From contig NC_084666.1 of the NCBI RefSeq assembly GCF_028389875.1, forward strand, positions 66,782,422 through 66,846,421: a stretch of 64,000 nucleotides of DNA, read 5' to 3'. Below, in pieces: positions 39,101-42,100 of the stretch (positions are counted from its first letter, which is position 1; each line of letters begins with the position of its first letter). The notes beneath the pieces were generated by a model. It did no database searches. It saw nothing but the letters and a program-made list of their open reading frames with translations, and was not told the origin of the DNA. The DNA is from Rhea pennata (taxonomy: Eukaryota; Chordata; Aves; Rheiformes; Rheidae). A program made the position numbers and the translations under genes.

Positions 39101-42100
39101 CCTTCTTCTCTGTTGGTAAGAGGGAATCAAATGTTAGCTGCAAGTTCTTTAAACATGGTTTATACACTTAATCTCCATCAAGAACGATACAGGTATAGAT
39201 TAATTTACCTTAGGACAAAGCAGTGGATTAGACAACATCTCAAAGCACCTGCTTCTGATGTCTTAACATTTAAACAATCCACTGAGTTTAGTGGACGAGA
39301 GTTTAGGCCTTTGTTTAAGTATTTCACTTTAAACGTACCGGGGCATACCTGGAACGCACCCTCTGCTGCCGGCTTTGCTCGTGCGCGGCACCAGTGCAGG
39401 TGAGTCGGGCTCCCACCGTGGGCTGGGTTGCTCTGAGGACGGTCGTCGGCGTGAGCTGCCCCTCTCGCTGCTCCCTCTTTGACCCGCAGGCGGGAGATAC
39501 AGAACTCCGTGAAAAGTGCTCGTTTTCCTCTGAACACTGCAACAAGCAACAGAGTTTCTGTTCACTTTTATGAGACCTAAGAAATTCTAACAAGAGCTGA
39601 GTGATAAAGATAAAATATGCAATGAATCAAACCTATATGGAAATGCTGATTTTTTTTTCCCAAGGAGTTTATTATCATACCTAAGTAATTTACTTTTATT
39701 ACCTCTGTACTTTCAGCCTCTTTGTTCATACTGGCAACGAAGCAGGAAGCCTGTCCAAGGCAGGTTGATATGTATAAGAAAATGTTTTCTTAGAGAGAGA
39801 TCTCTGCTTTGTTCTAACTCCAAGCAGATATTTCAAATTTCAGCGATAGCTCAAACCATTTTTTCTCTGTTTTCAAGAATTTGATACATTACTTGATTGT
39901 CCAGTTCTAGCAACCATATGTTTTCACATGTGCTGAGACAGTATCTGTCTCTGAACTTCTGCACAGAATACGTCTCTGATGCTTGAGTTACACGTCTGAG
40001 ATCTACAAAAAGCCCTGAGACCTGCGAAGTTCCTACAGCAGAATGATTACTAAGCCCAGGTCCCGGTTCTAAATTAACAAGGGGTGGAGAGGCATTCTCA
40101 CGTTCTCTAAGGTGTTTTTCCACTTTTCAGTGGGAATCAAAGATTTCCTTTGGCTTTGAACATGTCAAAGGTGAGCCACATTTTAGAACTGCCAAATCAC
40201 AGTATGATCTGTATTAAATGAGGTATTTACAATACACTGTTCTGGTGGAATATACACAGCAGGTAATGTTGCACTGAGAATGATGTGCTACTTTGTTAAT
40301 CATATCATTGTGCTAGAAAATTTGAGATCTTAACTTGTAGGTTGGCAAATTAATAAATTTCCCCTTTTCGTGTGCACAGTTCGCAACCTTGTTAGCTCAG
40401 CACCCCAGGCTCATGCTGCAGTGGATCTCAGTTTTTATTTCAGTTTCTTCACCAGTGTGACATTATTTTCCTTTGGAGAAGCAGAAGATGTGATGCACTG
40501 CTGACTGAGTACTTGGTGAATGGCAGTAGCTAACTAACTTTTATTATGTAGTTCAGACTTAGTTCTATGAAGGACACTAGGTCTTTTGCACATTGAAATT
40601 AGCCATCATAACCCAGCACTAATGCTGTCTTTTGAGACACATGCAGAAGTTCCATCTTCCAAGTCCAGTACTGCACTCATGGTGCATATTTTCCTATGGT
40701 TTAAATAATGTTTTTACCTGCATGCTTCTTGTCTGCCTTTTTAACTCCTCTTGTTATCACTGTTTTATTTCTAGGAGACAAGGTTATTCCACTCTTTGTT
40801 CCACAGTGTGGGGAGTGCAGCACTTGCTTAAGCACCAAGGGCAATCTATGCTGTAAAAATGAGTGAGTTTCCTCCATTACCTAATGACCTTTGTTTGATT
40901 TTATTTACAAAATAGCCTGTCCCATGCTTTAGAGATCTCATTTGCCATTAATTTCGGTTATCTTTTGAACAGAATTGGTTCACCTTCTGGAATGATGCCT
41001 GATGGCACCACGAGGTTTACCTGTAATGGAAAAAAAATTCACCATTTTCTTGGTGCAAGCACCTTCACTGAATACACTGTAGTGCACGAAACTGCAGTGG
41101 TCAAAATCGCTGCTGCTGCTCCTCTGGAAAAAGTCTGCCTCATTGGCTGTGGATTTTCGACTGGTTACGGGGCTGCACTGCAGACGGCCAAGGTAGGTGC
41201 TGCGGCAGCTGCTTCTGATGCCTTCTGGGGTCTGTTAAGCATTGAGGCCTGCGAGCAGGTCATCAGCATGGGAGTCAGAGGTACAAGACTCCATTTGCTG
41301 ACTTCATGGTGGACAGAAGTTTTTTGCCTCAGTTTCTCTGTCTATAAAGTACTTTTGAATTGTAGACTTAAAATCCCCCCAAACTGTTACTTACCATTAC
41401 CATCTGTAAGGTTTCCTCTCAGAACTCTAGCTTTATCGCCCTTTACCACCACTCTAGCTTTATCACCTGGAAGTCTGCTGTGAGGAAAGCTCGTAATCTG
41501 CAGCAATGCACAAATATGACTTTTACAGCTGGCTCTGTCTCCAAGGGAGTGAAACCACAGCCTGATTTTAACAGCAGTGAAATACAGAGCATCATAAAAA
41601 ATTTGGCTCTAAACCTGAAGTTGAGACCTGTAATGAAAGCCTCGTCTCAGAAATGTATTTTAGAAACAACTTATCTTAGTCACGTGTAAGATTTTAACAG
41701 TGTACCTGGCTACTGCATTGGTAGATGCGCTAGTGCATATTCCTTCTCCGTGGGTAAACTCCAGCCGTCTTAAGTGAAAATGAGTGGATAATAAGAAATG
41801 CACTGTACTTCACCTGGAATGTAACAGGATACCATATTCTTTGATTACTGTAGGTGGAACCAGGCTCTACCTGTGCAGTCTTTGGCCTCGGAGGAGTTGG
41901 CCTCTCTGTTGTCATGGGCTGCAAGGCGGCTGGAGCTTCCCGCATCATTGCCGTTGACATCAACAAGGACAAGTTTGCCAAGGCCAAAGAGCTGGGAGCC
42001 ACCGACTGCGTCAACCCTAAAGATTTCACAAAGCCCATTCATGAAGTGTTGATCGAGATGACTGGCTATGGCGTGGACTACTCCTTCGAAGTCATAGGTC

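Follow-up and report, generated by a model that had tools for sequence, protein, structure and literature searches.

Interlocus gene conversion of tandem duplicates is recognized by a short mosaic tract with sharp borders and low silent divergence. Among alcohol dehydrogenases (ADH) the closest described examples are primate: passages of Carrigan et al (2012, PMC3409193) report macaque ADH1 tandem paralogues in which most of exon 6 is raised in similarity, at fourfold sites as well, and conversion of exon 6 together with part of exon 7 in human ADH1B/1C. The highest synonymous similarity in both human and macaque lies at coding positions about 800–925, and repeated conversion is proposed there by the authors for the primate class I paralogues (PMC3409193, same passages). 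Birds carry, in addition to class I ADH1, a class VII enzyme, ADH7, first described in chicken as ADH-F and given an origin 450–360 million years ago in the sections of PMC4028059 that we draw on. Here, we describe a tandem ADH pair of Rhea pennata in which part of exon 6 has very probably been copied between these two classes.

The stretch of DNA analyzed (hereafter the window, 64 kb from Rhea pennata) holds two complete ADH genes in tandem on the + strand, at 36162–46611 and 51040–57431, each with nine exons at corresponding places. Rebuilt from consensus splice sites, both reading frames are fully open, encoding 375 aa in the first gene (exons 36162–36179, 37637–37738, 38675–38813, 40775–40862, 40973–41192, 41854–42114, 42638–42773, 44893–45031, and 46587–46611) and 376 aa in the second (exons 51040–51057, 52942–53043, 53856–53997, 54360–54447, 54546–54765, 54907–55167, 55479–55614, 56412–56550, and 57407–57431). 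The longest exon in both genes is exon 6 (261 nt in each, at 41854–42114 and 54907–55167), and its two copies lie 13 kb apart. Exon 7 (55479–55614 in the second gene) displays the greatest protein-level change of all exons, with 23 of its 45 residues differing between the genes. Both proteins contain the Pfam domains ADH_N and ADH_zinc_N and retain C46, H67, and C174, which we take to bind the catalytic zinc, as well as C97, C100, C103, and C111, presumably the structural zinc ligands; these domains and ligands mark both as zinc-dependent MDR alcohol dehydrogenases. No third ADH copy was found in the window by tblastn with both proteins (E up to 1). Upstream of the pair, exons at 1646–6902 match the tRNA (guanine-1) methyltransferase family (Pfam PF01746) and probably represent TRMT10A, a gene that we take to flank the ADH cluster in mammals, in keeping with its position here. 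A segment at about 57100–57350 resembles, by eye only, the end of a CR1 retroposon, an element common in birds.

The two genes can be placed in different classes by their diagnostic residues. The first protein has R47, H51, F93, and F140, and one residue is absent near position 60; among PDB chains it matches horse E and human class I best. These four residues are marks of class I, and amniotes lack one residue near 60 (sections of PMC4028059), such that the gene, with all class I marks present, reads as ADH1. The second protein has T48, C93, Y110, H115, F116, F140, L141, W142, and D223-I224-N225, and finds its best PDB match in human class I ADH1A, with no chain named class VII among the 60 listed (the human gene named ADH7 encodes class IV, and is different from the class VII ADH7 referred to here). 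In the same sections of PMC4028059, class VII is marked by T48, a small residue at 93, H115, W142, and D-I-N at 223–225, and tyrosine at 110 occurs only in the three birds of its Table 7. By these published residues the second gene is assigned to class VII as an ADH7-type gene (the chicken ADH-F type), the fit being imperfect in that its C47, E294, and M306 are absent from all three birds of Table 7 (PMC4028059). The cysteine at coenzyme-binding position 47 is encoded by exon 3 (53856–53997); this position is R, H, or G in the eight ADH7 enzymes of that table.

Along the coding alignment, nucleotide identity for exons 1 to 9 is 0.78, 0.68, 0.71, 0.60, 0.69, 0.89, 0.62, 0.61, and 0.86 (exons 1 and 9 being tiny, at 6 and 7 codons), and 290 of the 864 sites aligned outside exon 6 differ. 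The strong divergence of exons 2–5, 7, and 8 given in the preliminary description of this DNA is thereby confirmed, at 60–71% identity. A two-breakpoint maximum likelihood fit delimits a near-identical tract at 41858–42013 in ADH1 (156 nt, + strand), paired with 54911–55066 (+ strand) in the ADH7-type gene and covering about coding positions 572–727; the fit gains 41 lnL units, and the 2-lnL support ranges of the breakpoints are 41858–41863 and 42008–42013. Only four of the 156 nt differ (41909, 41928, 41952, and 41969), which reproduces the earlier observation of near-identity almost to the base. The attribution of this identity to exon 6 also stands as regards its location, but not as regards the whole exon, since the tract occupies the first 60% of it and starts 4 nt inside.

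Both borders of the tract are abrupt. At its downstream end, the 14 codons from 42013 on differ at 14 of 42 nt, in agreement with the sudden loss of identity noted previously. The preceding introns were said to look unrelated, and so they do on both sides of the exon: compared ungapped and unshifted, 11 of the 60 nt just before exon 6 (intron 5) and 18 of the 60 nt just after it (intron 6) match, and blastn detected no intron homology between the two genes, every match falling on exons. An upstream border so close to the exon edge (4 nt) would be set by the unrelated intron 5. A comparison across 35000–60000 returned a single long repeat common to both genes, the exon 6 pair itself (271 nt). 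In a shuffle test that permuted codon columns of the paired coding alignment, the longest exact identical run, of 51 nt, was equaled in length in 1 of 5000 shuffles. With a mismatch penalty of 4, the best segment is 41858–42086 (18 differences in 229 nt, uniting the tract with a second run considered below), and 0 of 5000 shuffles reach its score; a penalty of 2 selects a longer and looser segment (465 coding nt, 81 differences; score reached in 5 of 5000 shuffles), and at a penalty of 1 the segment test is uninformative, with 5000 of 5000 shuffles reaching the score.

The tract encodes the best-conserved part of the protein, and some identity is therefore expected anyway; the silent sites carry the distinction. 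Silent codons were defined as those that keep their amino acid, excluding Met and Trp, which leaves 252 of the 375 aligned codons (a single unpaired codon of the second gene is not counted in the 375). The two genes use the same codon at 46 of the 48 silent positions within the tract, as against 84 of 179 in the exons other than 6 (Fisher 5e-11). Given the same amino acids and the behavior of the other exons, 22.6 identical codons would be expected (P about 2e-14), and independent draws from the codon usage of each gene would yield 17.0 (P 5e-20). Synonymous divergence per exon, the test set beforehand, is far lower in the tract: the part of exon 6 up to 42013 has a dS (Nei–Gojobori) of 0.08 and a pS of 0.07, and pooling the other exons gives 2.04 and 0.70, respectively. 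Taken singly, exons 3, 5, and 7 have dS values of 1.08, 1.24, and 1.31, exons 1, 2, 4, and 8 are beyond saturation, and exon 9, with 7 codons only, gives 0.46. Fourfold sites differ at 2 of 31 positions in the tract (3 of 32 once the first codons of exon 6 are added) compared with 56 of 91 in the other exons, and outside CpG none of the 27 fourfold sites of the tract differs. Near-zero silent divergence, far under that of the rest of the pair, thus coincides with discrete breakpoints and divergent surrounding exons, and supports gene conversion, the process originally invoked for the exon 6 identity. From this contrast inside one gene pair of one assembly, we conclude that ectopic (interlocus) conversion very probably moved ~156 bp of exon 6 between the tandem ADH genes long after their classes had diverged.

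Other origins of the tract can be weighed against the same data. Purifying selection on the NAD-binding fold alone, with no copying, draws on the conservation of this segment between classes, as 42 of the 51 tract residues are shared by human ADH1B and human class II ADH4; that human pair nevertheless differs at 9 residues where the present pair differs at 2, and the excess of identical silent codons (46 where 22.6 are expected) is left unexplained. Protein constraint alone is insufficient when silent sites are identical, and we regard this origin as extremely improbable. Constraint could instead act on the silent sites themselves, with splicing enhancers, RNA structure, or codon use freezing part of exon 6 in both genes, and third positions of the tract are indeed somewhat richer in G+C than those of the other exons (0.65 and 0.61 vs. 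0.45 and 0.48). Such constraint would, however, have to begin at the exon edge and end within a few bases in mid-exon; the draws from codon usage also tell against it, as does the Rfam search, in which no family reached gathering score in the window, and we find it highly improbable. Short, abrupt, exon-sized identity can also be produced by mis-correction, if, during assembly or polishing, reads from a single exon 6 had been assigned to both loci or had served to correct both. An artefact of this kind is very unlikely given that the copies differ at four sites (two of these CpG to TpG or CpA), that both frames remain open, and that the exon pair is the sole long shared repeat of the region, leaving each copy with unique flanks. 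Lastly, the template might have been a spliced RNA or cDNA in place of the other gene, for the upstream end of the tract lies no more than 4 nt from where exons 5 and 6 join; yet the unrelated intron 5 would halt DNA-templated conversion at the same point, and exon 5, with 24 of 47 silent codons identical, has no matching tract, such that we hold templating by RNA or cDNA to be very unlikely.

A further question is whether exon 6 was converted once or many times, and here the remainder of the exon is informative. It makes no clean return to background divergence: 17 of its 24 silent codons are identical (P 0.014), and its pS is 0.50 compared with 0.70 for the other exons pooled, which counts against the conversion reading. 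It also contains a second identical run near the exon end, whose presence had been pointed out before, spanning 32 nt at 42055–42086 in ADH1 and 55108–55139 in the ADH7 copy (both + strand). Scored on nucleotides with the tract excluded, a run of 32 nt is reached in 48 of 20000 shuffles. All nine silent codons at this run are identical (4.3 expected, P 0.001, the place having been picked after seeing the run), and on silent codons alone, with the place not preset, a run of nine arises in 14.5% of shuffles; we therefore treat 42055–42086 as suggestive of a patchy or second conversion tract. Were exon 6 conversion long-recurring, with homology never lost, the tract would mark only the most recent event, with the 32-nt run as a trace that is older or patchy. 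The reduced divergence in the rest of exon 6 speaks for such a history, as does the repeated exon 6 conversion described for primates (passages of PMC3409193), and it would ease the difficulty of pairing exons from such old paralogues. The second run can equally be accommodated by one patchy event, considering how often shuffles of silent codons match it, and the primate silent signal peaks beyond the tract (PMC3409193, same passages). On balance, the remainder of exon 6 and the primate record weakly favor repeated conversion, a history that we consider possible, if doubtful. We would similarly offer only as a tentative proposal that exon 6 serves as a module of recurrent conversion in the ADH clusters of tetrapods, birds and primates alike, with pieces of it passing repeatedly even between classes as old as ADH1 and ADH7 and with the coenzyme segment evolving by species and the rest by class; if true, whole-sequence trees of ADH classes would be biased by the exon 6 segment.

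Returning to conversion between the two loci, the differences within the tract bear on its direction and age. All four are transitions, and at the two silent sites ADH1 has CpG where ADH7 has TpG or CpA; they look like mutations that followed copying, three of which would have arisen in the ADH7 copy. One change in the ADH7 copy turns D into G; human ADH1A, ADH1B, class III, and class IV, as well as horse E, have D at this residue, and class II has E. We lean toward ADH1 as the likelier donor because the motif KFAKAKE is present in both copies and in the class I chains compared (human 1A and 1B, and horse E, which departs from KFAKAKEL at the last letter); it is absent from human class II, III, and IV and from mouse class II. 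Within the tract, the ADH7 copy is identical to human ADH1B at 47 of 51 residues and to human ADH4 at 44 of 51, and outside the tract the ADH7-type protein shows a similar slight lead of ADH1B (123/187 vs. 118/189 for ADH4), so protein identity does not settle the donor.

Age estimates were derived from bird substitution rates of 1.2, 2.2, and 3.5e-9 per site per year. The 2 of 31 fourfold differences give point values of 10–28 million years (intervals 1 to 116), including the first exon 6 codons (3 of 32) gives 14–42 million years (intervals 3–142), and the absence of change at the 27 non-CpG sites sets one-sided 95% upper limits of 17–50 million years. The event was initially called recent; relative to the genes it is young, as so few fourfold sites differ, but in absolute terms the interval is wide, and the conversion need not be limited to Rhea pennata.

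How exons from such old paralogues came to pair is a puzzle, in that no identical run outside exon 6 exceeds 13 nt in spliced sequence, or 11 nt if confined to one exon, and runs of this size are short for ordinary homologous recombination. Repair of a break, or of a stalled fork, at one locus may, we infer, have used the other copy briefly as its template. Pairing would be likeliest at exon 6, which as both the longest exon and the most conserved coding segment probably offers the best stretch of shared sequence. Intron 7 of ADH1 contains a stretch of ~1.2 kb (42966–44150) that is 87% purine on the + strand; no 300-nt pieces of the window are richer in purines than those within it. Triplex DNA can form on tracts of this kind, which are prone to breakage; a role for this stretch in initiating a break would be speculation, as it lies ~1 kb beyond the tract and no link was seen.

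The persistence of the patch may be rationalized by what it encodes. It corresponds to a dinucleotide-binding part, running from GLGGVG to D223 and K228, that is common to both enzymes, and conversion here would be tolerated because few amino acids are altered (the present pair now differs at 2 of 51). Conversion over the substrate-binding exons, on the other hand, would be expected to shift specificity and to be removed by selection. This is enough to explain a coenzyme part that is alike and a remainder that is divergent, without selection for sameness. The proposal that conversion homogenises the coenzyme fold is accordingly upheld with respect to the copying of exon 6 and overstated with respect to its effect: the fold was already conserved between classes, hence copying probably altered few amino acids and may merely have been tolerated.

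Beyond the window, one exact degenerate pattern for a 14-residue segment, used to look for vertebrate ADH DNA elsewhere, gave 0 matches in viral_contigs and 0 in genome_contigs. Among the matches listed for open-access titles and abstract starts, we found no report of ADH1–ADH7 conversion, and a text search of PMC4028059 returned 0 mentions of gene conversion. The significance of the locus lies in a clean conversion tract between classes, one of them 450–360 million years old, within an exon that has also been converted among primate ADH1 genes. Should the same hold in other birds and reptiles, a conserved cofactor-binding exon would have remained exchangeable over hundreds of millions of years, and caution would be advisable when dating or rooting ADH classes with the exon 6 segment.

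In relation to known systems, the two genes carry the residues described, in the sections of PMC4028059 used here, for class I ADH1 and class VII ADH7 of birds and reptiles. With primate class I ADH conversion (passages of PMC3409193) the Rhea pennata pair shares both gene family and exon. It differs in its partners, which in primates are class I duplicates alignable through their introns and here belong to different classes with unrelated introns, and in the position of the signal, the primate silent peak lying at about 800–925 and the Rhea pennata tract at about 572–727, in a single exon (PMC3409193, same passages); because the primate peak is downstream of the tract, the match is by exon and not by exact place. 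Compared with interlocus conversion of tandem duplicates in general, the paralogues described here are unusually old relative to their tract. The Rhea pennata pair extends a known process to a new case, in which the partners are much older, belong to different classes, and have unrelated introns.
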